Origin: Megaustenia siamemsis | Taxonomy: Eukaryota > Mollusca > Gastropoda > Stylommatophora > Ariophantidae | Direction of reading: 5' to 3' | Assembly: GCA_032433765.1 (NCBI GenBank) | Contig: JAVIAB010000124.1 | Location: 72,093,746-72,157,745 of the forward strand | Length of the DNA: 64,000 nucleotides | In this document: positions 12,513-59,447 of the stretch, piece by piece | Layout of the letters: each line of letters opens with the position of its first letter | Position numbering within the stretch: the first letter of the stretch is position 1 | Position numbers and translations under genes: made by a program | Notes under the pieces: generated by a model | What the model saw: the letters and a program-made list of their open reading frames with translations, nothing else | What the model was told of the DNA's origin: nothing | The model's database searches: none

Positions 12513-12525
12513 TGGGGGGGGGGGG

Positions 12526-12556: not shown

Positions 12557-12557
<1 letters not shown>

Positions 12558-13215: not shown

Positions 13216-13388
<173 letters not shown>

Positions 13389-18078: not shown

Positions 18079-18090
18079 ATATAAACTCTA

Positions 18091-29757: not shown

Positions 29758-32066
29758 CTATCTATTGACCTTTCGAGCCGTAGCCGGCCCATAGGGCGTA
29801 GACCAAGATACTCCTTCTCCTATCTGAATTATAACCATATCTATCTATTGACCTTTCGAGCCGTAACCGGCCCATAGGGCGTAGACCAAGATACACCTTC
29901 TCCTATATGAATTTTTGTTCTAGCAGTTTTCTTTTAAAGATATTTTATCAAATCTCGCCATCTGTCTCTGTTCTGTGCAAGCAGTTCTATCTCATTGAGG
30001 GAGCCGATTCCTGCTGCTCTTGCCTCTCTCATCAATGTTCTTCTCAGTGTCTCCCTGGGTCTTCCTCTTTTTCTTTTACCTGTTGTTTCCCATATGAGGG
30101 CTTGCTTTGCTATTCGATTATTATCTCTTCTCATCACATGTCCAACGTATGACCATCGTCTTTTCTTTATTACTGAAGATATTAGTGGTTGATTGGCGAT
30201 TTCTCTAATTTCCTCGTTTGTTTTGAATTCGTTCCATTCTATACCAAGTATTTTCCTTAGACATTTATTTTCGAATGCGTTCAACTTTGTTTCTATATCT
30301 CTTGTTGTTTTCCAGCTTTCACACGCATACGTAAGGGTTGATAGTACATTTGATTTGAATAGCCTAAGTTTGTGTTTGTGCTAATGAGTTTTGATTTCCA
30401 CAACTTTTCAAGGCTTCTGAAAGACATTGCTGCTTTAGCCAGTCTGATTCTAATTTCTTTGCTCGTATCCCTTCTCGATCAATGTGACTTCCAAGATAGA
30501 TAAAGTGATCGATCTCTTCTACTGGTTTGTTTTCCATGTATATTTTGTCACTTGTTGGAATTAAACTTTTCATGACTTTAGTCTTTTCATGATTGACCTC
30601 AAGCCCAATTTTGCTGGCTATTGATGATAGTTCATTTGTGTTTTCCTGCATCGTTTTTATCTGACTGCTGATGAGAACTATGTCATCAGCAAAGTCCAGG
30701 TCCTCCAAATGGTCTCCTTCTATCCATTCGATGCCTTTATTACCAGTGCAGCATTTCTTCATTATGAAGTCCATAACAATTCCAAATAACAAGGGCGATA
30801 AAATACATCCTTGTTTAACCCCAGTTTCTATTGGGAAACATTCGCTCAGTCCTTCCTCTGTTCGAACTGCACATGTGTAACCATCATACATGTCTTTGAT
30901 AATGTTTATGATTTTTGATGGTAAACCATATTGCTTCAGAATTTTCCACAAAGAATCTCTATGAATACTATCAAATGCTTTTTTGAAGTCGATGAAGTTA
31001 AGTACAAAAGGTTTTTGCTTTTCAATGTGTTCCTCCAATATAAGTCGTAGAGTGAAAATGTGGTCAAGACAGCTTCTCCCTTTTCTAAACCCAGCCTGTT
31101 CTTCACGCATTACTGTATCTATTGAATCCTTTATTCTATTTAGGATGATTTTACAGAATAACTTTGAGGCAACTGACAAAAGTGTCACGCCTCTCCAGTT
31201 GTTACAATCTCTAAGATTGCCCTTTTTTGGGATCTTAACAATGATTCCTTTTTTCCATTTATGAGGCGTCTTCTCTGTTTTCCAAATGATGTTGAACATT
31301 TTTTGGAGATGTATTAAATTATGGCTATCAATTGCCTTGAGGATCTCAGCTGTTAACTTATCCTCTCCAGCAGCCTTGTTATTGGTCATTAGCTTTAAGG
31401 TGGTTTCTATTTCACTCAAGGTGAAGTCATCTAAATTTACATCTAATTCTGCTGCTGGTGTTTCAGCTTCAAAATCTATTAAACTGTGAGGTAGTGGACG
31501 GTTAAGAATTTCTTTGAAGTGTTCCGCCCAACGGGCTTTTATGTCTGCGCTTGTTGTTAGCATTAATCCAGATTTGTCTAGAATTGGTGTTCCACTGGAT
31601 GTATAGGTGTTTGTCAGCATCTTTTGTACAGTATAGAGAGTTCTGCTGTCTCCTGTAATTGCAGCTGTCTCTGCTTTCTCTGCCAAGTTGTCTATATAAG
31701 CTCTTGTATCTCTTCTTGCCGAACTTTTCACTTTGTTGTCTAATTCTTTGTATGTTGCTTTTGCCAGAACCTTTCCAAGATCTGTCTTTACATTAGTCAC
31801 GGCTCTCTTTGCTTCTCTTCTTTCTTTGATGTATTTCCATGTGGTGTCTGAGATCCAAGCTCGTTTTTCCATTTTCTTCAGTCCGGCACTTGCTTCTGCT
31901 GCTGTCATTAGTATTTTGCTCTGTGAGTCCCACATTTCATTGATATCTAAGTCTATTTCACCGAGTGCTGAATAACAATTACTTAGCTCTATGTTAAACT
32001 TTTCCTTTATGGCTTCATCTTTCAGTTTATGACTATCAATTTTATGTGTAATTGACCTTATTGTAA
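29758..32066 (-). mobile_element. R1 copy with duplicated tail and repeated TSD
   Basis: R1 copy flanked by ATAACCATAT at 29,748-29,757 and 32,067-32,076. A third ATAACCATAT at 29,831-29,840 separates an extra R1 tail of about 73 bp (29,758-29,830) from the main copy (29,841-32,066). This is either two insertions into the same site or a tail duplication that carried the target sequence. Confidence 0.88.
29934..32060 (-). pseudogene. R1 reverse transcriptase, two single-base deletions
   Basis: Same domain order as the 18,186-20,507 ORF from the linker onward: KAAGEDKLTAEIL, CNNWRGVTLLS, DFKKAFDSIHRDS, GVKQGCILSPLLFG, DFADDIVLI, thumb, RGRPRETLRRTLMREAR and DRWRDLIKYL. The frame is open from the 5' truncation to about 30,470. 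One base is missing in a C run there (CCCTTCTCG instead of CCCCTTCTCG) and another near 30,371 (AGTTTGTG instead of AGTTTTGTG), splitting it into the 523-codon and 116-codon frames. Everything else is intact, so inactivation looks recent. Confidence 0.88.
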
Positions 32067-37041: not shown

Positions 37042-38941
37042 CTATGTGTATGAGTGTGATACATTCATGCCTCGTGGGGTCAGCGAACCATACTGGACTA
37101 TGAGGCGATTTTCCAAAGTATAGCGGCTGCGGTCGCCAGAGTGACAGAGGACAATACCAGTGACACGGATGTCGTCTTTGCCCTTGTGATCTGGGGAGTT
37201 GAAATGGGAAGACACTGGAGTGCCAGTATTCTGTTGGACATCACGTAGATGTTCACAAAATCTTTCCGCTAATCTTCTACCAGACTCGCCTATATAGGTC
37301 ATGTGGCATCGTTGGCATATAATTGCATAAATGATGTTGCGGGACACACATGTGAAGCCATGCTTGATCTCGAACCGTCCATTGGGGAATAAGACCGAGT
37401 CAGTAGGGAGCACATAGGCACAGGTGATACAGTTACGACCACAAGGGGCCGTACCGAAGTGTTGAGGGTCGGAGCGAGGGAGACGGCTCCTAACCAGAAT
37501 GTCACCAAATTCCTGTCGCGCTTGAAGGCGATCATCGGGGGATCACTAAAAAGTAGACGGGTAGTGGGATCAGAGAGGAGAATGGAACGGTAGCGGTTGA
37601 GTATCCTCACAGCTGCTAAGTTGTGAGGATGATATGTGAGGGTGAGTATAGTTCTCTCAGAAGGGGGGCGGTTGGAAGGGGTGAGTGCCTCGGGACGAGA
37701 GATAAGGAGGACCCGCTTGAGGGCAGACTGGAGGATCGAGTCTGGATAAAGCCGGCGGCTGAAGAAACCTAACATGAGGTGAGCCTGTCGGAGGAAATCT
37801 TGGTCATCCTGGCAGATGCGACGGAGACGCAATAACTGTGAGAATGGAATAGAGTCGCGACAAGAAGGTGAATGGGATGAAGTATAGAGAAGGTAGCAGT
37901 GGGCGTCTGTGGGTTTATAGAAAACCGAGGTGTGGAGGCCAGAAGTACCGAAAGAAACAATAAGATCTAGGAAGGTGACAGAGGAAGTGGATATACAAGA
38001 TGTGATCTTGATAGCTTCGTGATAGCTACCAATATAGTCGATAAACCTGGAGAGGTCATCCTCAGGTAGATCAGTAAGTCCGAAGCAGTCATCAATGTAC
38101 CGAAGGTATATGATGGGGAGAGGACCTTGATAAGAATTGAGAATTTGGTACTCCAGGTAACCCATGAATAGGCAAGCATAGCTAGGGCCCATCTTGGTGC
38201 CCATGGCTACTCCACTGACCTGGTCATAGAAGTTACCATTAAACTCAAAGGTGTTGAGGTTGAGTACAAGCTCAGTGAGGCGGAGAAGAGTTGCAGTATC
38301 AACAGAGGGGTGTTGTCTCTGGTCAAGAAAGAAACGTAGAGCCAGGAGGCCGTCGGAGTGAGGAATAGAGGTGTAGAGAGAGCAAACATCAAGGGTAAAA
38401 AGTCGGTATGAGCGACCTCGGGAGAGAGAGATGGAAGAGAAGATACTCAATGCATGGTTAGTGTCCTTGACATATGAGGGAAGACTAACGACCATAGGCT
38501 GGAAGACACTGTCTAGATAGTCAGATATGTGTTCAGTCGGGCAAGCACACGCTGACACGATGGGGCGTCCTGGATTGCCGATTTTGTGAATTTTGGGGAG
38601 CATGTAGAAAGATGGTTTCCCAAGACCACTATTATGAATAATGAGGCGGGACGCGCTAGGAGGGAGCCGGTTGGTTCGGATCAGTTCCTTGATGGTAGAT
38701 TTGACCTGCTTATTGTAGAGGACAGTGGCGTCGTCAGGGCGGGGTTTATAAAAAGTGGTATTGGATAGCTGTTTGTTGCCCTCAGAAATATATAAGTCTT
38801 TGCGCCAAACTACCACCGCTCCCCCCTTGTCTGCCGGTTTGATAACAATGTCCTCCCGGCGGCGGAGATTAGAAAGGGCCCGAAGCTCAGAGGGAGATAG
38901 ATTAGAGCGGTGAAGTTTTCTAGGGCACAGTTGTTGTATCT
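37042..38941 (-). pseudogene. PLE RT plus GIY-YIG endonuclease, one frameshift
   Basis: One polypeptide broken by a single-base loss near 37,521. RT part (38,941 to about 37,520): KPADKGGAVVVWRKD near the N-terminus, a signature of PLEs; PSFYMLPKIHK and GRPIVSACACPTEHIS; TLDVCSLYTSIPHSDG with the first catalytic Asp; GVAMGTKMGPSYACLFMGYL; and YLRYIDDCF, the catalytic DD box. A Cys-rich linker, CGRNCITC, follows in the shifted frame (about 37,425). Endonuclease part (37,042-37,413): IIYAIICQRCHMTYIGESG carries the paired IY and YIG motifs, then LAERFCEHLRDV with the conserved Arg and His, and a later ENRLIVQYG with the catalytic Glu. All key residues seem present. Only the frameshift and 5' truncation are obvious defects. 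Confidence 0.9.
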
Positions 38942-39080
38942 AAAGACTTATATATTATTAAATATCATGTATTTGCAAACATGAATTCAATTGGTTACAA
39001 TTAGTCTTGTCCTTCGGTCACCATTAGACCCCAGGACGTCCTAACTACAGCTGGAATTGAATTCATCTTAATTTTAATCA
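38942..39080. other. Junction between PLE and transposase A
   Basis: Short AT-rich joint with no feature. It should contain the 3' end of the left transposon, but no inverted repeat partner was found. Confidence 0.35.
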
Positions 39081-40291
39081 TTCCGAATCTGACGATTCCA
39101 AGAGGTTGATAATCATTACTGGCTGGACAAATAGTAATCCATCTCGTTTCCAGTACTCATCTTCCACCAGCAGCACATGTTCAACACACTTCTTCCAGAA
39201 CGGAATGTCTATTTTTGAGAGAGACTCGCGTGTCAGAACTTCAACATCGCACATTTTAAACGCCCTGTTCTGTTCTGCAACTTGTCCTTTGACGTGAGCC
39301 CAGACAAGTTCGATTGGATTAAGGTGCGCATGATATGCAGGGAGTCGAAGAGAGGTGTGGCCGTATTACTCAATGATTTTGTCAACATGGTACACCTTTT
39401 TCTTATTCGTATTCTTCACAAATTGTAACAATTCGGGTTTTAAATATGTGTCGTCAAATTTGACATTTTCATTCGCAAGCCATGTCCTAATTTGCTCTTT
39501 TGTATTTGATGCAGTAGGCACTTTGTCTTCCTCTGATACGACATTGTGGTATGATGCATTATCCATGACTATGCATGAAGGTCTCTCCAGGATTGGTAAA
39601 AGATCGTTCTCCAACCAGTGCCTGAAAATGTTTCCATTCATTTCAGTATGGTAGTCCCTACCGTCGGTAGTTTTTGATTGAAAAATAAGTCATGGACATC
39701 ATGGACAAGACCGTTTTCAGTGCTTCCAGTATGCGTTAATATAATGCGCTGGCCTTTGCTGCTCGGAATTGTTCTTTTGAGTTTGCCATTTACTGACTGA
39801 TATTCTTTAGCATAAGTGTGGTGTGCGTTGACCCATGATTCGTCCAAATATACAATACCATACCGTTCACTCCGCCGCTCACGGATCTGTCTCAGGTATT
39901 TTCTTCGAGCAATGACCAAGTGTGGTTTTTCACAAAGAATATTCCTGCGTCCAACAGTTTTTCTGAAAGTGAAGCCGGCTCCTCTCACAATCTTCCATAG
40001 AGTACTTTTAGAAATGTCAATATTGCAGTCTGCATGCAATTTTAATTTCAAATTCCTGAGAGTAACAAGTACATTATTAGCAAACATTTTCAATACCTCA
40101 CGTTTTATGACATCCATGTCAAAGCTGTCGACTTTCCTTTTCCTTCCTTGATTGACATGAGTGCACTCTGAGTCTTGTTTAATCCAACGAGAAAATGACG
40201 ATCTATTAAGACCAAGCGCGAGTTGCGTTCGTCTCTCTGGGTCATGAATATCACAATATAAATGCCCCATCAGTAGTATAGCAGGCTCCAT
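39080..40291 (-). pseudogene. Transposase A, Tc1/mariner group with long D-E spacing
   Basis: DDE transposase that would cut and join transposon ends. Minus strand: an N-terminal helix-turn-helix region (ALGLNRSSFSRWIKQD, then KSTLWKIVRGAGFTFRK), the first Asp in YLDESWVNAHHT, the second in CIVMDNASYHNVV, and the Glu in AHLNPIELVWAHVKGQVAEQ about 83 residues later. This spacing is far longer than the 34-39 of common Tc1/mariner proteins and resembles the DD82E group called Sailor in the literature (my recollection). It ends ..NLLESSDSE. Defects are a frameshift near 39,672 and a stop before YGHTSLRL. Its 5' end overlaps the outer edge of the large palindrome. Confidence 0.85.
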
Positions 40292-40313
40292 TTGACCCCA
40301 TTGTGGCGCTAAA

Positions 40314-40583
40314 TTAACAATTATATATAGGGCGGCGCGCCTTTCGCGCGAAATGTACACGAGAGACAAGGGGAGTTAATCGGTCGTGCGACGGCGTGAC
40401 CCCTCGTGCGGCGGCGCGTGGTGACCTAGGGGCGGATCGCGTGTTGGCGGGTGACCCCTCGGGGATTATCTCGAGTGGTTCGGACAGCGTGCTATCGGAT
40501 CGGGGATTATCTCGGTTCGGTGGGACGCTATCGCGCCAGGTAGCCGTTAGAAAATATTTATAGCTATGTAGTTGGGTGTCCAC
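40314..40583 (-). other. GC-rich block with 89-codon ORF, left copy
   Basis: Strikingly GC-rich sequence in AT-rich surroundings, with an 89-codon frame (starting MDTQLHSYKYF, rich in Pro, Arg and Ser) mirrored at 47,371-47,640. No homologue is recognised. It lies between the PolB C-terminus and the outer edge of the palindrome, where an element's terminal repeat would be expected. It may be non-coding terminal sequence. Confidence 0.5.
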
Positions 40584-40671
40584 TTAGCGTTGACCCATAA
40601 ATGAGTCATAAGGGGTGAAACAGTTAGAGATTCCTGGTTAGTCTAAGCGGGTAGTGTAAAGAGTTAAATAT

Positions 40672-41370
40672 CTAGAGGCGTAGTCGAGACGTTATCATCA
40701 GCTACATTTCTTTTTATATAGAAATAGGAAAGAGCATTTCTTGTTTGACTGTAGGAAAATATGGAATTATTTAAGACTTTGAATCCTACATTTTTCCCAC
40801 CCTTGGCCTTTTGCGTAGCGAGAACCCCTAAAAACATATCTTTATCTAGTTTGTTGTGTTGCTTATTTAACCCTTTACAACTGATTTTTTTTATCGTAAT
40901 CCCCACTGCAATGGTAAGTCTTACTACATAAGCTAACAAGGGCTGTCCCTTCATACTCTAATTTAAAAAGACCGGGCGTTCGTTTTGGTGTATGCTTTAA
41001 CACCTTTACAGTTTATACAGTCTGTCTTGATAATATGCTCATCGCAAAACTCGGCAGGAAACCAGTCTTTATATACACTATTAAACTCATCCCGCAGACC
41101 TGACTTAACTATGTCCTCTAACTTAGGGGCGCTTAAGGCTAAGTATAAACTATCAGTATCTGTTTCACATAACTGAAAGTCGGACCTATCTACAAACTTA
41201 TCTAAGAACTCAAAATAAAAATCTAACATACGAAGTTTCGCATATTGATACACGAAGAAACCGATTTGTAGGGTAAGTCCCAAACAGTTTTCTTTTTCTC
41301 CATCTCAATTTCGAAAAGATCCACACCTATTTCAGTCATCTTTTTAAACCGGGAACTGTTTATCATTTTC
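40672..41370 (-). pseudogene. Family B DNA polymerase C-terminal remnant, left arm
   Basis: Remnant of a viral/Polinton-type DNA polymerase. Minus strand shows RFKKMTEIGVDLFEIE, then IGFFVYQYAKLRMLDFYFEF, the catalytic motif C in ETDTDSLYL, a Cys-containing TDCINCKGVKAY segment, then in other frames ALVSLCSKTYHC, KGLNK, and NALSYFYIKRNVADD. Residues near VWDL are out of frame because one C is missing at about 41,274, unlike the right arm. A frameshift after KTNARSF and another near DYDKK are shared with the right arm. The exonuclease domain, palm motifs A and B, and most of the protein are absent. Assignment to the Polinton/adintovirus group rests on recognition of the C-terminal pattern. Confidence 0.75.
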
Positions 41371-41389
41371 TAGACTTCTCTGTATTGCT

Positions 41390-41403
41390 CTCTCTCTCTC
41401 TCG

Positions 41404-41437
<34 letters not shown>

Positions 41438-41440
41438 TCT
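41390..41440. repeat. (TC)n microsatellite
   Basis: CTCTCTCTC run, mirrored by a (GA)n run at 46,508-46,570 in the right arm. The lengths differ slightly. Confidence 0.95.
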
Positions 41441-41724
41441 AACCCCTACTAGACTTCTTTCCTACCATTCGTACTTTATATACATCACCATTAATACAAC
41501 TGAAATTCCTTTAATGATAACCTATCACATCGTTATGAGATAAGAGAAAAACTGAAAAAAAATTCAACTTACACCGTAAAATATTCCACTACAACACAAA
41601 CCGCTAGACTGAACAGTACTATGAAAATAAACTTCCGTGAATCAAGCGCGCTTATAACACGGAGTCTCACATCCGACTAGTTTAAATATAATCTGGTAAA
41701 TAAAAGTTGGACGACACTATTCCA

Positions 41725-41885
41725 CCCTCGACTAACATCTAGGTTAACCAATCAGAGAGAGGATTTCTATCGGACACCCATCAACGAAATGACTGACCTT
41801 TGGATTAACCAACCAGAGAAGAGGATTTCTATCGGACACCCACCAACGAAATGACTGACCTCTGGATTAACTAATCAGAGAAAAA
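41725..41885. repeat. Three tandem copies of a ~57-bp unit
   Basis: Units containing GGATTAACCAACCAGAGA, ATTTCTATCGGACACCCA and ACGAAATGACTGACC. They are mirrored at about 46,060-46,215. Confidence 0.85.
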
Positions 41886-42289
41886 GATTACTGTTATCGT
41901 GATAACTGACCTCATTTTCAACTTGGAGTTCTGTCGAGTCTGACGCGTGGGTTACTTTAAATCGAGTCGGCCCCTGATACAATCCACCTAGCGGGTCAAT
42001 GGTGGGAGGAAATAATACAAGTGACGGGTTACTTGAACGCGTTTTGACCCCTGATGCAATACCAGGAGTTCCATGACAGTCATAAATAGTTGGATAAAAC
42101 GAGCAGGAAGTTATATTCAAGGTCCAAAATGTTAGACCAAATCACTAAGATTTTACCACCAGAACACACAAATTTAGGCTCATATTCAAAAAGTCGACCT
42201 TAAAACCATACAAATCTACTCCCATACTCATAAAATTTAGACACATCAAACAGATAATTACTTCCAAACTCCAAAAAGTTAGACCAAAT

Positions 42290-42830
42290 CACGCCTCGAT
42301 CGTTCTTTAACATTGCCTCGATCGTTTTCTAACATTGCCTCGATCGTTCTCTAATATTACCTCGAGCGTTCTCTAACATTGCCTCGATCGTTTTCTAACA
42401 TTACCTCGATCGTTCTTTAACATTGCCTCCAGCGTTCTTCGATCGTTCTCTAACATTACCTCGAGCGTTCTCTAACATTGCCACGATCGTTCTTTAACAT
42501 TGCCTCCAGCGTTCTCTAACATTCCCTCGCTCGTTCTTTAACATTGCCTCCAGCGTTCTTCGATCGTTCTCTAACATTACCTCGAGCGTTCTCTAACATT
42601 GCCTCGATCGTTCTCTAACATTACCTCGAGCGTTCTCTAACATTGCCACGATCGTTCTTTAACATTGCCTCCAGCGTTCTTCGATCGTTCTCTAACATTA
42701 CCTCGAGAGTTCTCTAACATTGCCTCGATCGTTCTCTAACATTACCTCGAGCGTTCTCTAACATTGCCACGATCGTTCTTTAACATTGCCTCCAGCGTTC
42801 TCTAACATTCCCTTGCTCGTTCTCTAACAT
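42290..42830. repeat. 22-bp tandem array, left arm
   Basis: About 24 head-to-tail units of the pattern TCGATCGTTCTCTAACATTGCC, with variants CGAGCG, CCAGCG and CTCGTT, sometimes alternating as 44-bp dimers. The units are contiguous with no unique spacers. Confidence 0.95.
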
Positions 42831-43022
42831 TTTCATTAGTTGGAGTCTTTGTGTTGCCTTCTCTAGAGTGAGATTCTCTACGTGTTTCTTCAGGCTAAAT
42901 TGTCAGTCTAGTTGTATTCCTAAAAATCTACTTCCATACTGATACTAGTTAGACACATCGAACAGATAGTTACATCCAAAGTCCCGCCAAATCGCAAACA
43001 TTTTACCCCCAGAACACAAAAA

Positions 43023-44714
43023 TGTAAAAAAAAAACATTTTCGCATCGTGCTTTTAGCACCATACATCTGCGTAGTATGCACGGCTCAAAAACCACTGTC
43101 TACTACTAGTTTTTTTTGTCAAATATTATGTTTGGGGTATGCCTTGAGGTTATATTTCAATTTTTTTATCGATTTCAGGGGCGTAACCCTCAAAAATGGT
43201 CAGGGGGGTAACAATTTGAAAAGTGTTTTTTAAGTTAATTTTTGGTGTGGGGATGTCTAAAATAAAGTTGTAGGTAAGCCTACGTGCTAAATTTACGATT
43301 TTTTTCGATTTCATGGGCGTAACCCTCAAAAATGGTAAGGGGGGGGGGGTTACAATTTCAAAAGTGATTTTTAAGTTAATTTTTGGTGTGGGGATGTCTA
43401 AAATAAAGTTTTAGGTAAGCCTACGTGCTAAATTTACGATTGTTATCGATTTCAGGGGCGTAACCCTCAAAAATGGTAAGGGGGTTACAATTTCAAAAGT
43501 GATTTTTAAGTAAATTTTTGGTGTGGGGATGTCTAAAATAAAGTTTTAGGTAAGCCTGCGTGCTAAATTTACGCTTTTTATCGATTCCATGGGCGTAACC
43601 CTCAAAAAATGATAAGGGGGTAAAATCCTAAAAGTGGTTTTTAATGTAAATTTTTGCAATGGGGATGTCTAAAATAAAGTTTAGGGTATGCCTAGAGTGA
43701 AAATTTACGCTTTTCGTCGAATTCAGGGGCGTAGTCACCAAAAATGGTCAGGAGGTAAAATCCTAAAAGTGGTTTTTAATGTAAATTTTTGCACTGGGGA
43801 TGTCTAAAATAAAGTTTGGGGTATGCCTAGCGTGCAAATTTACGATTTTTACCGATTTTATGGGCGTATCCATAAAAAATGGTCAGGGGGTAAAATCCTA
43901 AAAGTGGTTTTTTATGTAAATTTTTGCTATGGGGATGTCTAAAATAACGTGTTTTTTTTGGACTTTGAATATAACTTTCTACTCGTTGTGTTTAACTATT
44001 ATGACTATGTGAGTAGCTTTTTTGGATTTTTAGGTCGACTTTTTGAATATGAGCCTACATTTTTGTGTTCTGTAGGTAAAATATTTGCGATTTGGCCAAA
44101 CTTTTTTTGGTTTTAGAAATAACGATCGGTTCGATGAGTCTAACAATTATGACTATGTGAGTAGTTTTTTGAAATTTTTAGGTCGACTTTTTTAATATGA
44201 GCCTACATTTTTGTGTTCTGTGGGTAAAATATTGGCGATTTGACCAAACTTTTTGGGTTTTAGAAATAACGATCGGTTCGATGTGTCTAACAATTATGAC
44301 TATGGGAGTAGATTTGTAGAGTTTTAAGGTCGACTTTTTGAATATGACCCTAAATTTGTGTGTTCTGGTGGTAAAATCTTAGTGATTTGGTCTAACATTT
44401 TGGACCTAGAATATAACTTCCTATTCGTTGTGTCTAACTATTACGACTATGTGAGTAGCTTTTTGGGATTTTTAGGTCGACTTTTTGAGTATGACCCTAC
44501 ATTTTTGTGTTCTGGGGGTAAAATATTTGCGATTTGGCGGGACTTTGGATGTAACTATCTGTTCGATGTGTCTAACTAGTATCAGTATGGAAGTAGATTT
44601 TTAGGAATACAACTAGACTGACAATTGAGCCTGAAGAAACACGTAGAGAATCTCTATTACGACTATGTGAGTAGCTTTTTGGGATTTTTAGGTCGACTTT
44701 TTGAGTATGACCCT
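43023..44714. repeat. Palindrome 1 spacer: two satellite-like arrays
   Basis: Non-palindromic centre. First half (about 43,100-43,955): six units of about 135-136 bp marked by GATTTCAGGGGCGTAACCC and TGGGGATGTCTAAAATAAAG. Second half (about 43,956-44,870): units of about 147 bp marked by AGGTCGACTTTTTGAATATG, GTGTTCTG..GGTAAAAT and GTGTCTAACTATTATGAC. Both unit types also occur in palindrome 2. Confidence 0.9.
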
Positions 44715-44880
44715 ACATTTTTGTGTTCTGGGGGTAAAATGTTTGCGATTTGGCGGGACTTTGGATGTAACTATCTGTTCGATGTGTCTAACTAGTATCA
44801 GTATGGAAGTAGATTTTTAGGAATACAACTAGACTGACAATAGAACCTGAAGAAACACGTAGAGAATCTCACTAAGAAGG
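44455..44880. repeat. Duplicated 147-bp-type segment
   Basis: A stretch of about 190 bp (from TTACGACTATGTGAGTAGC to AAACACGTAGAGAATCTC) is repeated almost identically at 44,447-44,654 and 44,657-44,868. One copy is truncated at its end. Confidence 0.85.
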
Positions 44881-44904
44881 CAACACAAAGACTCCAACTA
44901 ATGA

Positions 44905-45655
44905 AAATGTTAGAGAACGAGCAAGGGAATGTTAGAGAACGCTGGAGGCAATGTTAAAGAACGATCGTGGCAATGTTAGAGAACGCTCGAGGTAATGTTA
45001 GAGAACGATCGAGGCAATGTTAGAGAACTCTCGAGGTAATGTTAGAGAACGATCGAAGAACGCTGGAGGCAATGTTAAAGAACGATCGTGGCAATGTTAG
45101 AGAACGCTCGAGGTAATGTTAGAGAACGATCGAGGCAATGTTAGAGAACGCTCGAGGTAATGTTAGAGAACGATCGAAGAACGCTGGAGGCAATGTTAAA
45201 GAACGAGCAAGGGAATGTTAGAGAACGCTGGAGGCAATGTTAAAGAACGATCGTGGCAATGTTAGAGAACGCTCGAGGTAATGTTAAAGAACGATCGTGG
45301 CAATGTTAGAGAACGCTCGAGGTAATGTTAGAGAACGATCGAAGAACGCTGGAGGCAATGTTAAAGAACGAGCAAGGGAATGTTAGAGACCGCTGGAGGC
45401 AATGTTAAAGAACGATCGTGGCAATGTTAGAGAACGCTCGAGGTAATGTTAAAGAACGATCGTGGCAATGTTAGAGAACGCTCGAGGTAATGTTAGAGAA
45501 CGATCGAAGAACGCTGGAGGCAATGTTAAAGAACGATCGAGGTAATGTTAGAAAACGATCGAGGCAATGTTAGAGAACGCTCGAGGTAATATTAGAGAAC
45601 GATCGAGGCAATGTTAGAAAACGATCGAGGCAATGTTAAAGAACGATCGAGGCGT
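44905..45655. repeat. 22-bp tandem array, right arm
   Basis: About 34 units of the reverse-complement pattern GGCAATGTTAGAGAACGATCGA, with the same variants as the left array but more copies and a different variant order. Confidence 0.95.
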
Positions 45656-46507
45656 GATTTGGTCTAACTTTTTGGAGTTTGGAAGTAATTATCTGTTTGA
45701 TGTGTCTAAATTTTATGAGTATGGGAGTAGATTTGTATGGTTTTAAGGTCGACTTTTTGAATATGAGCCTAAATTTGTGTGTTCTGGTGGTAAAATCTTA
45801 GTGATTTGGTCTAACATTTTGGACCTTGAATATAACTTCCTGATCGTTTTATCCAACTATTTATGACTGTCATGGAACTCCTGGTATTGCATCAGGGGTC
45901 AAAACGCGTTCAAGTAACCCGTCACTTGTATTATTTCCTCCCACCATTGACCCGCTAGGTGGATTGTATCAGGGGCCGACTCGATTTAAAGTAACTCACG
46001 CGTCAGACTCGACAGCACTCCAAGTTGAAAATGAGGTCAGTTATCACGATAACAGTAATCTTTTTCTCTGATTAGTTAATCCAGAGGTCAGTCATTTCGT
46101 TGGTGGGTGTCCGATAGAAATTCTCTTCTCTGGTTGGTTAATCCAAAGGTCAGTCATTTCGTTGATGGGTGTCCGATAGAAATCCTCTCTCTGATTGGTT
46201 AACCTAGATGTTAGTCGAGGGTGGAATAGTGTCGTCCAACTTTTATTTACCAGATTATATTTAAACTAGTCGGATGTGAGACTTCGTGTTATAAGCGCGC
46301 TTGATTCACGGAAGTTTATTTTCATAGTACTGTTCAGTCTAGCGGTCTGTGTTGTAGTGGAATATTTTACGGTGTAAGTTGAATTTTTTTTCTGTTTTTC
46401 TCTTATCTCATAACGATGTGATAGGTTATCATTAAAGGAATTTCAGTTGTATTAATGGTGATGTATATAAAGTACGAATGGTAGGAATGAAGTCTAGTAG
46501 GGGTTAG

Positions 46508-46540
<33 letters not shown>

Positions 46541-46572
46541 CGAGAGAGAGAGCGAGAGAGAGAGAGAGATAC
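46508..46572. repeat. (GA)n microsatellite
   Basis: Mirror counterpart of 41,390-41,440. It lies just upstream of the PolB remnant. Confidence 0.95.
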
Positions 46573-46587
46573 AGAGAAGTCTAGAAA

Positions 46588-47288
46588 ATGATAAACAGTT
46601 CCCGGTTTAAAAAGATGACTGAAATAGGTGTGGATCTTTTCGAAATTGAGATGGAGAAAAAGAAAACTGTTTGGGACTTACCCCTACAAATCGGTTTCTT
46701 CGTGTATCAATATGCGAAACTTCGTATGTTAGATTTTTATTTTGAGTTCTTAGAAAAGTTTGTAGATAGGTCCGACTTTGAGTTATGTGAAACAGATACT
46801 GATAGTTTATACTTAGCCTTAAGCGCCCCTAAGTTAGAGGACATAGTTAAGTCAGGTCTGCGGGATGAGTTTAATAGTGTATATAAAGACTGGTTTCCTG
46901 ACGAGTTTTGCGATGAGCATATTAGCAAGACAGACTGTATAAACTGTAAAGGTGTTAAAGCATACACCAAAACGAACGCCCGGTCTTTTTAAATTAGAGT
47001 ATGAAGGGACAGCCCTTGTTAGCTTATGTAGTAAGACTTACCATTGCAGTGGGGATTACGATAAAAAAAATCAGTTGTAAAGGGTTAAATAAGCAACACA
47101 ACAAACTAGATAAAGATATGTTTTTAGGGGTTCTCGCTACGCAAAAGGCCAAGGGTGGGAAAAATGTAGGATTCAAAGTCTTAAATAATTCCATATTTTC
47201 CTACAGTCAAACAAGAAATGCTCTTTCCTATTTCTATATAAAAGAAATGTAGCTGATGATAACGTCTCGACTACGCCTCTAGATATTT
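46588..47288 (+). pseudogene. Family B DNA polymerase C-terminal remnant, right arm
   Basis: Better copy of the polymerase fragment. An open 134-codon frame (46,588-46,992) holds SSRFKKMTEIGVDLFEIE, IGFFVYQYAKLRMLDFYFEF and motif C ETDTDSLYL. A frameshift near 46,988 (shared with the left arm) moves into KLEYEGTALVSLCSKTYHC, another near 47,065 moves into SCKGLNKQHNKLDKDMFLG and SQTRNALSYFYIK, and a last one near 47,245 leads to RNVADDNVSTTPLDI at the stop (47,288). The order and C-terminal signature fit protein-primed PolB of Polintons/adintoviruses. Only roughly the last 235 residues are present, so it cannot replicate DNA. The coding direction is outward, as in the left arm. Confidence 0.78.
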
Positions 47289-47370
47289 AACTCTTTACAC
47301 TACCCGCTTAGACTAACCAGGAATCTCTAACTGTTTCACCCCTTATGACTCATTTATGGGTCAACGCTAA

Positions 47371-47640
47371 GTGGACACCCAACTACATAGCTATAAATAT
47401 TTTCTAACGGCTACCTGGCGCGATAGCGTCCCACCGAACCGAGATAATCCCCGATCCGATAGCACGCTGTCCGAACCACTCGAGATAATCCCCGAGGGGT
47501 CACCCGCCAACACGCGATCCGCCCCTAGGTCACCACGCGCCGCCGCACGAGGGGTCACGCCGTCGCACGACCGATTAACTCCCCTTGTCTCTCGTGTACA
47601 TTTCGCGCGAAAGGCGCGCCGCCCTATATATCTTTTTTAA
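47371..47640 (+). other. GC-rich block with 89-codon ORF, right copy
   Basis: Mirror of 40,314-40,583. The predicted peptides are the same except at the last two residues. No function is recognised. Confidence 0.5.
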
Positions 47641-47690
47641 TTTAGCGCCACAATGCGAGTCAAATTTACCTTGCTATACTACTCCCATCT

Positions 47691-48049
47691 TGGACTCCCT
47701 AAGGAAGTGCTGATATAGTAAAAAAGTAACCTTTTGCATAGTTATAAATTTGCATTTCAAACTCATTGTAATTTAGATATAAATGTTGGTATTTAAAGTC
47801 AACAAATTGTCTACTGAGTCTTCACAAAATTAATAAAGATACGCCTTCACTTCGGTAATTAATGCCAAGGCCGTGGTGCGTCATGTCGTTCAATATTCAG
47901 GTTTGTGCACGGGATTTTCCTGAAGTTAGTGTTTCTGCAATAGCCAAACTATTTTACGTGAACGACCGCACCAAATTAATGTATATATCCTAAAATGGTG
48001 TCAAATTCGAACAGGGCGAATTTAATATAGCCTAAAGAAGAAAACTTTT
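47691..48049. other. AT-rich spacer, no gene
   Basis: Unique sequence between the palindrome edge and the left repeat of transposon B. Confidence 0.4.
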
Positions 48050-50314
48050 AAACTATAGCTTGTTTCATAACTCGTGCTCCACTTTTAAAATCGATAGCTT
48101 TTTAACCGCTTGTTGTAAGTTGTTCAAAATTTGCATGTAAAGTTATAATGATTAGAACCCAACAGGGAATTAATTTCATTAAAAAAAAACATTTGCTTAT
48201 TATTGTTGCTTATTTGATTTATATAAATTTAGAACGACCCATTAATGTAGTCAAAACTTAATGTTTACAGTATTTTAAGTTAAAAATAGCGAGTAAAAAT
48301 CCATACACGGTAAAATTGACGTGTTTGCACGCTTTCGCCGTGGTTTTTTGACACAATTAGACACTTGTAAAGAACACGAGAAATTGTGTGTTCCATTTCC
48401 GTTCATTCATAGGTGAGAACGTGGAACGATAACATTTATCATGAGTCTTAAAATGAAATTCTGCAGTTTACAAAACATCGCAATAAAAATGTATGACTAT
48501 TTTTGCAAAGAGGCTAAACGAGGAAGATTATTTCATTCTTTAGAAAACCCTGAGAATAGAACAAGACACATTTTGGATTTATCTAAACGGTCATTTAATC
48601 GCTGGATTCAAGCACGTGACCGTCAATGTTCAAAATATACAAAATCACAAGGAAGAGCAAAAATGTTGGATAATTTCGACAGTGAACTTATTAGAAGTGA
48701 AATTCGCAAAATGTTGGGTATGAATGAAACTGTTACAATAAGAAAATTAAAAGTATCTCTGAAATAGAACAACAGTATTGAAATATCAAAGTCTACATTA
48801 TGGAGGAATGTGAGAGCTGCAGGCTTTACTTTCAGAAAGTATTCCAATGGACGAAACATCATCTGTGAGAAGCCACATATAGTAGTCATAAGAAGCAAGT
48901 ACTTACGTGAAGTAAAAGAGGTGCGCAAGCAAGGTTATGATATTGTGTACTTGGATGAAACATGGATCAATGCTCACCACACTAACCAAAGGGAATGGCA
49001 GTCATCAGATTGAAAGATTAAGAGATTAATACTTAGCAGCAAAGGATAGCGCTTGATAATTGCTCATGCAGGTAGTCGACAACATGGACTAATACAGAAT
49101 GCAGAGCTCATTTTTCTTTCAAAATCCATAGACAATCGGGATTATCACTCCGAGATGAATGGTCACATATTTAGATATTGGATTGAAAATTATGTTCTCC
49201 CATCACTAGATCGACCATCTTGCCTAATAATGGACAATGCAGCGTACCACAACATTGTTGCACTTGAAAATAAAGTCCCGACGTCATCCAGTACAAAAGA
49301 TGCTATTAAGATATGGCTCACAAAGGAGCACATACAATTTAATAACATGTACTTAAAACCTGAATTACTATCTCTAGTAAAGCAAAAACAAAGGACAAAG
49401 ATTTTTCAAATAGATAAGATTATCCAAGAGCACAGTCATATAAGTTTGAGACTGCCACCTTACCATGCTCATTTAAATCCAATAGAACTAATCTGGGCAA
49501 AATTAAAAGGACAAGTGGCAGATGAAAATACAACATTCAAAATATGCGATGTAAAGACTCTTGTTAATCTCGCTTTATTAAATATAGACAAAGATTATTG
49601 GGCTAAATGTGAAGACCACGTCTTAAAACAGGAAGAGGAATATTGGAAAAATGATGGTTTGTGGAATGTTCAACCCCAAACAGTTATTAATCTTTTAGAC
49701 TCGTCTGATTCAGAATGAAAGTATATAGCCCCCACAATGTTGGCCCCTATATTACCTTAAATTAGTTCAACAAACGGTCCTTATCAGGACCACACCACTA
49801 TGAAAATTGGACATACAGGTATACCTTGATATTATCGTCCGTCCTCGAACTGAGAAGACAATAATTCTCCTGGTGTTTTGTCTTATTAGGTTATTTCCCC
49901 ATTACGGCCACGCCTTTACCTAGTGAAAATTAATCATAGACCAGCAACTACGGTAATTTCTATTATTTAGGGGTTCACAATTTACAATTTTGACAAACAT
50001 CAAAGAAATTCGCCGCTTTAAGAAAACTGCAGCTGCAAGATATTTGTTAAATATTCATTTAAAGGGTCTTTTGCATTCTAATAACATTTGGAAAATGTCA
50101 ACAGTTTTTAACAAACGGTTACTGAGTAATAGCGTTTTGAAGTTGGGCACGTGATTTGAAACGAGCTATAGATCAAATTTCTCAGAGCAAAAATTATTTC
50201 TATAACGTCATCAATAATCTAAGATTCCATGCAAAATTTGAAAGCAAAATAACAAACGGTTATCACGCAAAACTAATTCAGGTGTGATTATGAATTTGTG
50301 AACGGACTATAGAT
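48050..50314 (+). mobile_element. Transposon B (Tc1/mariner group, long-spacing DDE)
   Basis: A transposase pseudogene framed by diverged inverted repeats. The left repeat is at about 48,050-48,155 (CTATAGCTTGTTTCAT, AACCGCTTGTTGTAAG), the right at about 50,072-50,172 in inverse orientation. A second direct unit at about 50,231-50,314 has the same AACAAACGGTTA and CGGACTATAGAT phrases. Two repeat units per end is the IR/DR arrangement known from many Tc1-type elements. The left side shows only one unit, perhaps cut by the neighbouring palindrome. Confidence 0.65.
48441..49718 (+). pseudogene. Transposase B, two in-frame stops
   Basis: About 425 codons. Helix-turn-helix region (DLSKRSFNRWIQARD; KSTLWRNVRAAGFTFRK), first catalytic Asp in YLDETWINAHHT (about 48,955), second in LIMDNAAYHNIV (about 49,235), Glu in HLNPIELIWAKLKGQV (about 49,490), 83 residues after the second Asp by my count. 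It ends INLLDSSDSE. Stops lie at about 48,766 and 49,012, plus a TAG (likely from CAG) near 49,047. Nothing else is broken. It is roughly 55-60 percent identical by eye to transposase A, so the two are paralogues and not mirror copies of the palindrome. Confidence 0.88.
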
Positions 50315-54186: not shown

Positions 54187-54426
54187 TTAACCGTCTGGGT
54201 TTCCTACACAACCGCCCTCCATTTTGACAAAACCTTGATCAAAGCTGGAATAGGTAATCGGTGACTTTGCTGAAACATCCTGGGCATCCATATTGGCTGC
54301 CGGAGCTGTCGTCTGATTAACAAGACTGAGGTCCCCTTGGTTAACAAAAAAGGGCGTGTAGTTGATCTGGTTAACAACAGGCGGCATGTAGTTGAGGTTG
54401 GCATAAGCGTTTTCGAGACTGCCTTA
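54187..54426 (-). CDS. Unidentified ORF end with polyadenylation signal
   Basis: Minus-strand frame of about 80 codons, starting inside palindrome 2 (LENAYANLNYMPPVVNQ) and continuing outward through TPFFVNQGDLSLVNQTTAP to ..GCVGNPDG and a stop at 54,187. An AATAAA lies about 35-40 bp past the stop. It is rich in Asn, Pro, Val and Gln, with no membrane segment. A stop precedes it in the same frame within the palindrome arm, so it is either a final exon or a broken gene. I do not recognise it. A structural protein of the parent DNA element is only a guess. Confidence 0.4.
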
Positions 54427-54464
54427 ACGCCATCTTTAGACAACGGAACTACCCCCTCTGCCTT

Positions 54465-55090
54465 CATGTCCTATCATCATCACGTGCCACCCTCAACAAT
54501 AGCATCATCCCTTCATGGCCTATCATCATCAGCATGTGCCACCCTCAACACCATCACCATCCCTTCATGTCCTATCATCATCATCACCAAGACACACAAA
54601 GTGACACATCATCAACATATGCCACCCTCAACACCATCATCATCCCTTCATGTCCTATCATCATCATCCCTTCATGTCCTATCATCATCAAGCCACACAA
54701 AGTATCAAACCGATTATTAGTGACACATCATCATGTGCCACCCTCAACACCATCATCAACCCTTCATGTCCTATCATCATCATGTGCCACCCTCAACACC
54801 ATCATCCCTTCATGTCCTATCATCATCAGCATGTGCCACCCTCAACACCATCATCAACCCTTCATGTCCTATTATCATCATCATCACCAAGACACACAAA
54901 GTGACACATCATCATCATGTGCCACCCTCAACACCATCATCATCCCTTCATGTCCTATCATCATCATCCCTTCATGTCCTATCATCATCAACCCACACAA
55001 AGTATCAAACCGATTATTAGTGACACATCATCATGTGCCACCCTCAACACCATCATCAGCCCTTCAGGTCCTATCATCAAGCCACACAAA
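54465..55090. repeat. Minisatellite, left arm of palindrome 2
   Basis: Variable units of about 45-50 bp combining CATCATCATC, GTGCCACCCTCAACACC and CCTTCATGTCCTATC, with intermittent CACACAAAGTGACACATC. The long His/Ser-rich frames over it are compositional. Confidence 0.93.
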
Positions 55091-55599
55091 GTATCAACCA
55101 GCGAAATTCTCTCTCTCTCTGTCTCTCTCACATTCATGGTAAACCAAAACAAAATAGGCTCATACTCAAAAAGTCGACCTAAAAATCCCAAAAGCTACTC
55201 ACATAGTCGTAATAGTTAGACACAGGGAGTAGAAAGTTATATTCTAGGTCCAAAAAGTTTGACCAAATCACTAACAATTTACCCACAGAACAAAATAAAT
55301 ATAGACTCATATTCAAAAAGTCGACCTCAAATCCATAAAAATCTACTCCCATACTCATACTAGTTAGACACAACGAACCGATCGTTATTTCTAAAGCCAA
55401 AAAAGTTTGGCCAATTCGCAAATATTTTACCACCATAACACACAAATTTAGGCTCATATTCAAAAAGTCGACATCAAAACCATAAAAATCTACTCACATA
55501 GTCATACTAGTTAGACACAACGAGCAGGAAGTTATATTCAAGGTCCCAAATGTTGGACCAAATCACTAAGATTTTACCACCATAACACACCCACGACCT

Positions 55600-56345
55600 C
55601 TCGAACCACGCACTTAACAAACTACAAACTTAATAAACCACAACCCCACGAACCATGGACTTAACGAACCATCAACTAACGAACCACGAACCACGACCCC
55701 ACGAACCACGGACTTAACGAACCATCAACTCACGAACCACGAACCACAACCCCACGAACCATGGACTTAACGAACCATCAACTCACGAACCACGACCCCA
55801 CGAACTCACGAACCACGGACTTAACGAATCATCAACTCACGAACCACGAACCACGACCCCACGAACCACGGACTTAACGAACCATCAACTAACGAACCAC
55901 GAACTCACGAACCACGGACTTAACGAACCATCAACTCACGAACCACGAACCACAACCCCACGAACCATGGACTTAACGAACCATCAACTCACGAACCACG
56001 ACCCCACGAACCACGAACTCACGAACCACGGACTTAACGAACCATCAACTCACGAACCACGACCCCACGAACCACGGACTTAACGAACCATCAACTAACG
56101 AACCACGAACCACAACCCCACGAACCATGGACTTGACGAACCATCAACTCACGAACCACGAACTCACGAACCACGGACTTAACGAACCATCAACTCACGA
56201 ACCACGAACCACAACCCCACGAACCATCAACTCACGAACCACGAACTCACGAACCACGGACTTAACGAACCATCAACTCACGAACCACGAACCATGGACT
56301 TAACGAACCATCAACTCACGAGCCACGAACCACGACCCCACGAAT
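55600..56345. repeat. ACGAACCACG array, left arm
   Basis: Array built from 10-13 bp modules (ACGAACCACG, ACCCCACGAACC, ACTTAACGAACCATCAACTC) in a varying higher-order pattern of about 50-65 bp. Confidence 0.95.
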
Positions 56346-56357
56346 CATGTACTTAAC

Positions 56358-56690
56358 AAAGGCAGCGTCGAGGAGAGATATAATTTGCGGTCTCTTGCTC
56401 TTCTGTTCGCCTCTGCTGCTGGTATGTTTCCTAGCGCTTCTAATTGTACATCGACCCATCCTTTTTCGTGGTCGACAGTTGGGTCTGGTGTTCTCACAAC
56501 ATTTTGCTGAAGGCTCGTTGTGTTTTTGATCTGTCTGCCCTGTCACCTAGCCAAACTATTTTATCTGTTGTTTCCTTATATATTCTATGATGGGGGCTAT
56601 TCCTAGCTTTCTTCTCAGTTCTTCATTTCTGAGCTTATCTCTCAGACTGTTTCCTGTCATACGTCTAACACATTTCATCTCTGAGATCAC
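56358..56690 (-). mobile_element. R4 fragment captured in left arm
   Basis: R4 3' end reading on the minus strand into HNEPSAKCCENTRPNCRPRK and related frames. It is present as an inverted copy in the other arm, so it joined the unit before the arms were formed or was copied between them. Confidence 0.8.
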
Positions 56691-56842
56691 AAAAATTTAG
56701 GCACATACTCAAAAAGTCGACCTCAAAACCATAAAAAGCTACTCCCACATTCATCTAAAAGTTACACCAAAACCGCACCAGATTTGCAACGTGCAAAAAC
56801 ATGCACAAGTTTGACACGCGAACCAGTTTGGCACAATGCACC

Positions 56843-56934
56843 AATAGACATCCCCATACCAAAAATTTACTTTGATAATCACTTTTATGATTGATACGCC
56901 CCTTACGAAGGCTGATTGTTACGCCCCTTACGAA
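56843..56934. repeat. Palindrome 2 spacer
   Basis: About 92 bp of non-palindromic centre. It contains GACATCCCCATACCAAAAATTTAC, the reverse complement of a phrase of the 135-bp units in palindrome 1, and two copies of ACGCCCCTTACGAAGG. Confidence 0.85.
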
Positions 56935-57084
56935 GGTGCATTGTGCCAAACTGGTTCGCGTGTCAAACTTGTGCATGTTTTTGCACGTTGCAAATCTGGT
57001 GCGGTTTTGGTGTAACTTTTAGATGAATGTGGGAGTAGCTTTTTATGGTTTTGAGGTCGACTTTTTGAGTATGTGCCTAAATTT

Positions 57085-57425
57085 TTGTGATCTCAGAGAT
57101 GAAATGTGTTAGACGAATGACAGGAAACAGTCTGAGAGATAAGCTCAGAAATGAAGAACTGAGAAGAAAGCTAGGAATAGCCCCCATCATAGAATATATA
57201 AGGAAACAACAGATAAAATAGTTTGGCTAGGTGACAGGGCAGACAGATCAAAAACACAACGAGCCTTCAGCAAAATGTTGTGAGAACACCAGACCCAACT
57301 GTCGACCACGAAAAAGGATGGGTCGATGTACAATTAGAAGCGCTAGGAAACATACCAGCAGCAGAGGCGAACAGAAGAGCAAGAGACCGCAAATTATATC
57401 TCTCCTCGACGCTGCCTTTGTTAAG
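57085..57425 (+). mobile_element. R4 fragment captured in right arm
   Basis: Mirror of 56,358-56,690. It encodes LRRKLGIAPIIEYIRKQQ-type and RPRKRMGRCTIRSARK-type segments in different frames. Confidence 0.8.
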
Positions 57426-58125
57426 TCCATGGTTCGTGGGGTCGTGGTTCGTGAGTTGATGGTTCGTTAAGTCCGTGGTTCGTGAGTTCGTGGTTCGTGA
57501 GTTGATGGTTCGTTAAGTCTGTGGTTCGTGAGTTCGTGGTTCGTGAGTTGATGGTTCGTTAAGTCCATGGTTCGTGGGGTTGTGGTTCGTGGTTCGTGGT
57601 TCGTTAGTTGATGGTTCGTTAAGCCCGTGGTTCGTGGGGTCGTGGTTCGTGGTTCGTGAGTTGATGGTTCGTTAAGTCCGTGGTTCGTGAGTTCGTGGTT
57701 CGTGGGGTCGTGGTTCGTGAGTTGATGGTTCGTTAAGTCCATGGTTCGTGGGGTTGTGGTTCGTGGTTCGTGAGTTGATGGTTCGTTAAGTCCGTGGTTC
57801 GTGAGTTCGTGGTTCGTGGGGTCGTGGTTCGTGAGTTGATGGTTCGTTAAGTCCATGGTTCGTGGGGTTGTGGTTCGTGGTTCGTTAGTTGATGGTTCGT
57901 TAAGTCCGTGGTTCGTGAGTTCGTGGGGTCGTGGTTCGTGAGTTGATGGTTCGTTAAGTCCATGGTTCGTGGGGTTGTGGTTCGTGGTTCGTGAGTTGAT
58001 GGTTCGTTAAGTCCGTGGTTCGTGGGGTCGTGGTTCGTTAGTTGATGGTTCGTTAAGTCCATGGTTCGTGGGGTTGTGGTTTATTAAGTTTGTAGTTTGT
58101 TAAGTGCGTGGTTCGAGAGGTCGTG
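57425..58125. repeat. Array of CGTGGTTCGT units, right arm
   Basis: Reverse-complement counterpart of 55,600-56,345 (units such as GTGGTTCGTGAGTTGATGG). The Thr-Asn-His frames over it are artefacts. Confidence 0.95.
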
Positions 58126-59390: not shown

Positions 59391-59447
59391 GTAGTTCCGT
59401 TGTCTAAAGATGGCGATAAGGCAGTCTCGAAAACGCTTATGCCAACC

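Follow-up and report, generated by a model that had tools for sequence, protein, structure and literature searches.

Palindromic elements derived from Mavericks form a repeated family, of probable snap-back origin, in the genome of the gastropod Megaustenia siamemsis

Long palindromes are usually regarded either as unstable chromosome accidents or as products of viral replication that lead nowhere, and the locus described here raises the question of whether either view suits a palindromic structure that carries the end of a viral-type DNA polymerase in both arms. The window, meaning the whole stretch of DNA that was analysed, comprises 64,000 nucleotides of M. siamemsis contig JAVIAB010000124.1 (assembly GCA_032433765.1, positions 72,093,746 to 72,157,745, forward strand). 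A first-pass annotation, made from the sequence alone, had described a 7.4-kb palindrome in it and read this as a single fossil snap-back derivative of a Polinton-type element.

The mirrored arms are real, consisting of long inverted blocks about 99% alike (410/414, 555/559, 115/115, 1028/1036, 411/412, and 157/160 identical bases in the inverted alignment of 40272-43026 with 44714-47683), though their lengths are corrected to 2.76 and 2.97 kb. The arms differ by 209 bp in the length of one array, and their outermost 25 bp are identical at 21 of 25 positions. The alignment ends at 40272 and 47683, directly adjoining a perfect 6-bp target duplication, CCCATC, and the element so delimited begins with AGTAGT and ends with ACTACT. 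The 7.4-kb palindrome thus stands as an inserted element with inverted arms, but its centre, 43027-44713, is non-palindromic. The features of the locus are as follows:

39078..40271, minus strand: Tc1/mariner-like (DDE_3) transposase gene, body, broken by the insertion
40266..40271, no strand: target site duplication CCCATC, left copy
40272..43026, plus strand: left palindrome arm, terminus AGTAGTATAGCA, from the arm alignment
40664..41304, minus strand: PolB C-terminal relic of the left arm, outward, in broken pieces 40966-41304 and 40664-40957
42293..42831, plus strand: 22-bp tandem array of the left arm
43030..43107, plus strand: central-loop remnant, bounded on the right by ACTACT (43102-43107) and lacking the left half of the loop (compared by eye with relatives L021, L022, and L027)
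43163..43947, plus strand: 135-bp tandem array, in the window copy confined to the right of the loop
43954..44870, plus strand: 147-bp and 216-bp tandem arrays of the right inner part, left counterpart mostly missing
44714..47683, minus strand: right palindrome arm, terminus TGCTATACTACT, from the arm alignment
44906..45653, minus strand: 22-bp tandem array of the right arm, longer than the left
46585..47252, plus strand: PolB C-terminal relic of the right arm, outward, in broken pieces 46585-46989 and 46998-47252
47684..47689, no strand: target site duplication CCCATC, right copy
47684..47766, minus strand: first codons of the same transposase gene (beginning MSLK), beyond the far end of the element

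Once the element is removed, its flanks become collinear with a paralogous transposase, restoring the empty site, and the right flank alone matches that paralogue with a score of 65, which was reached by none of 4932 random pieces of the window. Because a single 6-bp target duplication encloses the element and the transposase gene is split by it, the element was already palindromic at insertion. Scans of the window for tRNAs and RNA families were empty.

The window element belongs to a repeated family. Among 26 PolB-end loci listed from the same genome, 20 of the 22 examined are palindromic, the remaining two (C46 and C90) showing no palindrome over the fetched stretch; the 26 were those that scored highest against the arm of the window element, with 40 of 5464 candidates scored, and other copy types may therefore be under-sampled. 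A query with the central loop, for which 40 matches were scored, led to 12 fetched loci, all of them palindromic. In 15 elements for which both ends were fetched, selected by the AGTAGT..ACTACT motif or by the arm boundary, this motif pair stands at both ends; the 6-bp duplication is perfect in 14 of them and matches at five of six positions in the fifteenth, each duplication lying at a different site. Family members thus had palindromic form when they inserted; each has (AGT)2//(ACT)2 ends and a single 6-bp target duplication, and the same single terminus occurs at both ends of the window element and of its relatives. The notion of a single fossil gives way to 32 palindromic loci (20 found via the PolB end, 12 via the loop), some with arms 99.9% alike.

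Elements range from 3.4 to 13.6 kb, and their inverted repeats, of about 1.4-6.3 kb, make up most of the length of many of them. Six young elements are 10.6-13.6 kb long with arms 99.4-99.9% alike, and where the arms of young elements are full-length, each arm holds an outward-facing zinc-finger PolB that is nearly complete but broken. The full form of the family consists of the terminus, the outward zinc-finger PolB, a 135-bp array (found beside the centre in nearly all relatives of the window element), and the loop, followed by the mirror image. The window copy looks like an internally deleted derivative of this form. The first-pass annotation had placed a head-to-head junction at the 22-bp array; comparison with relatives moves it to what remains of the loop, near 43030-43107, in a copy that lacks the left inner part. 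Independent turn-round points in different elements were considered and rejected, deletions from a common plan accounting for the shorter arms. Palindromy seems to be inherited because the centre is conserved among copies, and "snap-back fossil" appears right in kind but too modest, as palindromy looks like the inherited form of a family. Neither a unit-length element nor a canonical parent with two different ends occurs among the 22 PolB-end and 12 loop loci examined, and no description of palindromic Mavericks was found among the literature matches listed (titles and the starts of abstracts).

The polymerase gene links the family to Mavericks. The outward C-terminal PolB end described for both arms was recovered as relic pieces on each side, frame-broken in both, and relatives likewise carry PolB open reading frame (ORF) pieces facing outward on both sides. 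For the 46585-46989 piece, 90 of 95 candidates reach E≤0.01 (best 1.6e-35). An 858-aa piece of the family PolB matches at least 1395 proteins at E≤1e-10 (7990 scored), the best match with an organism name, among those listed, being a Pomacea protein at 52% that bears PF03175. This domain is present in 8 of 13 members of alignment A2, of which 12 were hand-picked among 120 matches listed. On the family's own PolB pieces, Pfam returned zinc-finger matches and no polymerase family. No relative turned up in viral contigs scanned with the PolB pieces and with two alignments, short PolB pieces had no relevant match in Pfam or among solved structures, and alignment A2 gave zinc fingers, weak Vsr-endonuclease similarity (E 0.22-0.28), and no polymerase in the same comparison; from alignment A1, one stray Tetraspanin match was discarded. 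Judged by sequence similarity, the family carries a protein-primed PolB gene, a Maverick/Polinton feature. In a survey of vertebrate Mavericks, these elements have (AGT)2//(ACT)2 ends and 6-bp target duplications (PMC8097293), and the earlier link to Polintons is upheld by the Maverick-type PolB, the AGTAGT..ACTACT termini, and the 6-bp duplication.

Differences at codon positions 1/2/3 number 49/39/94 between L032 and L026 (84 synonymous and 79 non-synonymous codon changes), 18/7/37 between L032 and L048, and 4/2/16 between the window PolB piece and L028. Comparisons within the young subfamily gave 4/1/1, 2/2/3, 3/2/2, 7/6/3, 7/6/3, and 6/5/9. At the level of codon substitutions, constraint on PolB is thus moderate between subfamilies and slight or nil among young copies, and the third-position excess between subfamilies, absent in young copies, suggests that PolB was under selection in the mobile lineage. 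Other Maverick genes were sought by eye among ORFs of at least 70 aa in three stretches of element C124, where no retrovirus-type integrase, capsid, ATPase, or protease was recognised; the ORFs were PolB pieces, antisense ORFs, and ORFs in repeats or flanks, and ORF lists of other copies at a higher cut-off gave a similar picture.

Arms carry substitutions of their own, and arm identity within the six young elements is 99.43-99.91%, as against 99.14-99.63% for the best match to another element, own arms being closer in 6/6; the mean for the 60 between-element pairs is 98.97%. Along the 3' part of PolB, own arms are closest to each other in only 10 of 16 elements, the other six comprising four ties and two elements (C41_57 and C47_80) with an arm closer to another element. 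Substitutions occur in the outermost 45 bp of 4/15 elements, strongly clustered in two, a feature outside the predictions of the explanation favoured below.

The centre of the palindrome bears on its origin. The loop, about 150-220 bp with stems included, is bounded by AGTAGTATA..TATACTACT, so that the terminal motif recurs in inverted order. It stands on both sides of the centre in seven young elements (L040, L041, L043, L044, L045, L046, and L062), in variant form on both sides in L022, L023, L025, and L027, and on one side only in the window copy, L021, L026, and L042; L024 lacks it at the centre, and L063 and L065 show no exact AGTAGTATA motif there. Loop orientation varies among copies, which is uninformative because a palindrome can insert either way. 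A strong hairpin at the centre merely restates the palindrome.

We favour, with a probability of roughly 0.64, a repeated, Maverick-derived family of palindromic elements that would have arisen by snap-back, would use an integrase in trans, and would include the window copy as an internally deleted member. The element would replicate as a linear molecule by protein priming, both its ends being the same. In a displaced single strand, the 3' terminus (..TATACTACT-3') may have looped back to an internal AGTAGTATA and served as the primer for its own elongation, so that the opposite end became a copy of the PolB side and the first palindrome arose; priming at the terminal motif would leave the centre as a loop bounded by that motif. 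The hairpin-forming single strand would then help the arms stay alike. PolB would be supplied by intact source copies of the palindromic family itself, and the integrase, perhaps also the capsid, by canonical Mavericks with the same ends (AGTAGTATAC), internal deletions yielding short derivatives with a broken PolB, the window copy among them. Of the earlier proposal that the PolB end replaced the other end by snap-back, the presence of that end on both sides and palindromy before insertion stand, while snap-back itself is an inferred origin, the best fit to the motif order at the centre.

The strongest rivals are two, both unlikely. Ordinary Maverick terminal repeats may have lengthened stepwise by gene conversion, engulfing PolB, leaving little unique sequence and making snap-back unneeded; the range of terminal repeat lengths in vertebrate Mavericks (46-1,447 bp, mean 402; PMC8097293) and the likeness of the arms here agree with this, but it does not predict an inverted terminal motif around the centre, and among the 22 loci, most of them read in part, none stood out as an intermediate with further Maverick genes. 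The loop could instead be a small AGT..ACT element inserted in mid-palindrome, or into one half before duplication, and so say nothing about origin. Its length and inverted AGTAGTATA ends would suit such an insertion, but the flanks AAAATT/AATTTT lack a 6-bp direct duplication, and all 12 loop loci fetched of the 40 scored, of which three more were already known, lie in palindromes. Far less probable are head-to-head dimers, formed by two linear elements joined at their ends or by one inserted beside another: each half does resemble one unit from loop to terminus, but end-to-end joining predicts a central ACTACT-AGTAGT, the opposite of the observed order, which already disfavours this origin, and a single 6-bp duplication encloses the whole palindrome in 14/15. 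Long palindromes are prone to mis-assembly, but an artefact of assembly, or host DNA duplicated locally in inverted orientation, is very unlikely for the family given target duplications at 14/15 loci, each at a different site, besides the restored empty site of the window and the arms' own substitutions.

Snap-back palindromes are known from adenoviruses, in which symmetric recombinants and snap-back defective genomes (Ad12 SYREC) carry the same viral end on either side of a giant palindrome with a non-viral middle, as virion or cell-culture products of a linear protein-primed replicon. The family shares the repeated end, the non-viral middle and, by inference, the type of replicon; unlike Ad12 SYREC it is integrated and repeated in an animal genome, with a PolB on which selection apparently acted in the past. 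Foldback-type and MITE-type DNA transposons likewise have very long inverted repeats, internal tandem arrays, and many non-coding derivatives, but lack the Maverick-like ends, duplication size, and PolB of the family, whose full copies have a polymerase gene per arm. As in Mavericks/Polintons, (AGT)2//(ACT)2 ends and a 6-bp duplication accompany terminal inverted repeats and a protein-primed-type PolB; unlike those described in the vertebrate survey, which are 12.7-24.6 kb long (PMC8097293), the family is smaller, its inverted repeats are longer, and PolB lies in both arms, and the integrase, capsid, ATPase, and protease of Mavericks were not recognised in C124, the element with the full ORF list. 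Bidnaviruses are also small replicons with a protein-primed PolB but are single-stranded DNA viruses (PMC4061559); no capsid gene was recognised in the palindromic family.

Whether the family amounts to a distinct class of mobile element is evenly balanced. Such a class would replicate as a near-perfect palindrome with two outward protein-primed polymerases, two identical ends, and a hairpin-forming centre, self-replicating and borrowing only an integrase, like a satellite of Mavericks. Repeat annotation easily mistakes such copies for separate PolB fragments or satellite DNA. The family offers a way to test how protein-primed elements initiate, fold back, and maintain similar arms, as well as the idea of a polymerase-only element living off the integrase of complete Mavericks. 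In this animal genome the palindrome seems to be the inherited layout of a repeated mobile family, whose polymerase bears signs of past selection, and, if the class is a distinct one, palindromy would be a way of life and not damage.

The palindrome in the window, whose alignment limits lie at 40272 and 47683, consists of two arms that align in six blocks (414, 559, 115, 1036, 412, and 160 bp), with 209 bp of array as their sole noted length difference; the mirror-image arrangement reported by the first-pass annotation is thus borne out.

40272-43026: left arm of the palindrome, ~99% identical to the right arm
44714-47683: right arm of the palindrome, ~99% identical to the left arm

The sequences AGTAGTATAGCA and TGCTATACTACT stand at these two limits, each directly flanked on its outer side by the six bases CCCATC. 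A minus-strand Tc1/mariner-like transposase gene, identified by weak HTH and DDE_3 matches, is cut off at the left end, and its first codons (MSLK..) lie directly past the right end. Read as an empty site, the joined flanks align with a paralogous transposase at 48441 (score 175); for the right flank by itself the score in one frame is 65, and none of 4932 random window pieces scored as high. Given the CCCATC duplication and a transposase split over both flanks, the window holds an inserted palindromic element with a 6-bp target duplication. The paralogue is a second, diverged transposase relic (48417-49718), ~0.7 kb beyond the insertion and directed away from it.

Other repeats are present in the window. 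A second palindrome of 5.1 kb (54384-59459; arms 99.4% alike, 2356/2370 aligned bases) has 147-bp units in common with the first; it bears no AGTAGT motif at its ends and no evident target duplication, and its left flank seems continuous with the arm via a 30-bp tandem repeat. An older inverted duplication of LINE reverse-transcriptase sequence (9246-13219, ~79-82% identity) includes a self-palindrome at 10446-11729. Two LINE copies (18087-20312 and 29838-32058) are 98% identical, and the end of this LINE also occurs in the central spacer of a related palindrome at locus C151 (L040 2238-2507). A minus-strand reverse transcriptase ORF (37045-38939; RVT_1 below cut-off), its end overlapped by a further ORF, is presumably Penelope-like.

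A search of the 2.59-Gb, 155-contig host assembly with window 40299-41300 returned at least 50 matches at 26 or more distinct loci, with the best 40 of 5464 candidates scored; locus counts are therefore lower bounds, biased to close relatives. Twenty-six loci were listed and 22 examined; 20 of these are palindromic and bear PolB sequence in each half, and the other two, C46 and C90, are not palindromic within the fetched extent. The first-pass annotation had proposed a single snap-back fossil, of which the snap-back-like form stands, but the singularity gives way to a repeated family. At C90, an 868-bp PolB-end fragment (L064 1940-2807), 100% identical to a young copy, adjoins the array in the direct orientation, not the inverted one. 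Elements range from 3.4 to 13.6 kb, and 14 of the 15 with both outer ends fetched are flanked by a perfect 6-bp duplication, at a different site each (the remaining one matches at 5 of 6 bases; C41_57, missing its left end, was excluded).

Four copies (C151, C124, C73, and C59_26) measure 11.8-13.6 kb, with arms of ~5.4-6.3 kb that comprise, from the outside in, a non-coding terminus, then PolB, read outward in large open segments, followed by the zinc-finger N-terminal part and finally a tandem array of 135/136-bp units that is ~75% identical to window array 43163-43947. The window copy, C49, C91_58, C143, and C155_33 follow this plan minus inner parts, the loss being mostly one-sided.

Each arm retains, as initially claimed, a relic of the PolB C-terminal end; at E≤0.01, 90 relatives match the piece at 46585-46989 in the window. 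An 858-aa piece from a younger copy has at least 1395 relatives at E≤1e-10 among 7990 scored. The 120 matches listed include Pomacea, Elysia, and Littorina proteins, and the close relatives named among them are molluscan; the Pomacea protein, 52% identical across the whole 858-aa piece, bears PF03175 and a C2H2 zinc finger. PF03175 was found in 8 of 13 aligned relatives and was not directly detected in the family's own PolB pieces. Positions 848-920 of that alignment's profile show weak similarity, inside PolB proteins, to Vsr mismatch endonuclease (E 0.22-0.28), a label that one source gives to a PolB relative.

In vertebrate Mavericks the end motif reported most often is 5'-(AGT)2//(ACT)2-3', target duplications are 6 bp long, and the terminal repeats measure 46-1,447 bp (mean 402; PMC8097293). 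The window element resembles these Mavericks in its ends and 6-bp duplication but not in its repeat length. PolB is likewise similar, but gene content differs: no integrase or capsid gene was recognised in C124, where the ORF list of its three stretches, judged by eye, held PolB pieces, antisense ORFs, and ORFs within repeats or flanks, and no gene candidate beyond PolB. Because ends, duplication, and PolB fit but gene content fails in C124, the family is, as far as read, Maverick-derived and not a Maverick. Snap-back derivatives are alike in mode of working, but here the form is a repeated family. Among the papers listed in literature searches, none dealt with palindromic Mavericks to judge by title or abstract start.

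At the centre of seven young elements (L040, L041, L043, L044, L045, L046, and L062), AAAATT closes the inner sequence and AGTAGTATA comes next, an order mirrored opposite, with ~150-220 bp from motif to motif; the arrangement in L022, L023, L025, and L027 is alike, with CTAGTAGT..ACTACTAG as the motif pair. The motif is present on one side only in the window copy, L021, L026, and L042 and on neither side in L024; no exact match to it was found in L063 or L065. Stem letters vary between elements, but those of any one element are mostly complementary. One loop served as query (best 40 of 1739 candidates scored; 12 fetched with 700 bp per side): all 12 loops lay between inverted arrays and none formed the outer end of an element. 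The central order is arm, AGTAGTATA, loop, TATACTACT, arm; the joining of two finished ends predicts the opposite. A single strand ending in ..TATACTACT-3' would instead fold back onto internal AGTAGTATA and extend itself, yielding this order and a PolB end at both ends, and the palindromes probably originated in this way. No unit-length parent was found among the loci examined. Protein-primed polymerases use triplet repeats for jumping back, which the tandem AGT repeat at the element ends recalls.

Self-folding of a long single strand may also be a route to keeping arms alike. In six young elements, the two arms share 99.4-99.9% identity over the outer 3.5 kb, and in every one of the six this exceeds the best match to any other element. 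Over a short PolB 3' stretch, own arms are closest in 10 of 16 elements, with four ties and the opposite result in C41_57 and C47_80. Of 15 elements, four have substitutions in the 45 bp at the very ends, strongly clustered there in the window copy (5 in the outermost ~45 bp vs 7 in the next 954) and in C155_33 (L021; 4 vs 4). Overall, a palindromic Maverick-derived family of snap-back origin is given a probability of about 0.64, and not higher because two elements oppose arm-to-arm likeness and two centres are without the exact motif.

Both window arms have a PolB frame break in common, and L021 shows the same reading end; in this subfamily PolB was therefore broken before the arms were last made alike, and the subfamily must have spread with help. 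Differences at codon positions 1/2/3 number 49/39/94 between L032 and L026 (84 synonymous and 79 non-synonymous codon changes), 18/7/37 between L032 and L048, and 4/2/16 between the window piece and L028, while pairs of young copies give 4/1/1, 2/2/3, 3/2/2, 7/6/3, 7/6/3, and 6/5/9. The third-position excess is thus the main trend between subfamilies and hardly present among young copies, the pattern of a gene apparently kept working in the mobile lineage under moderate constraint and decaying once inserted. The working gene may belong to canonical Mavericks that lie hidden and share this PolB; since all elements compared are palindromic, the simplest reading is that the palindromes themselves carried it.
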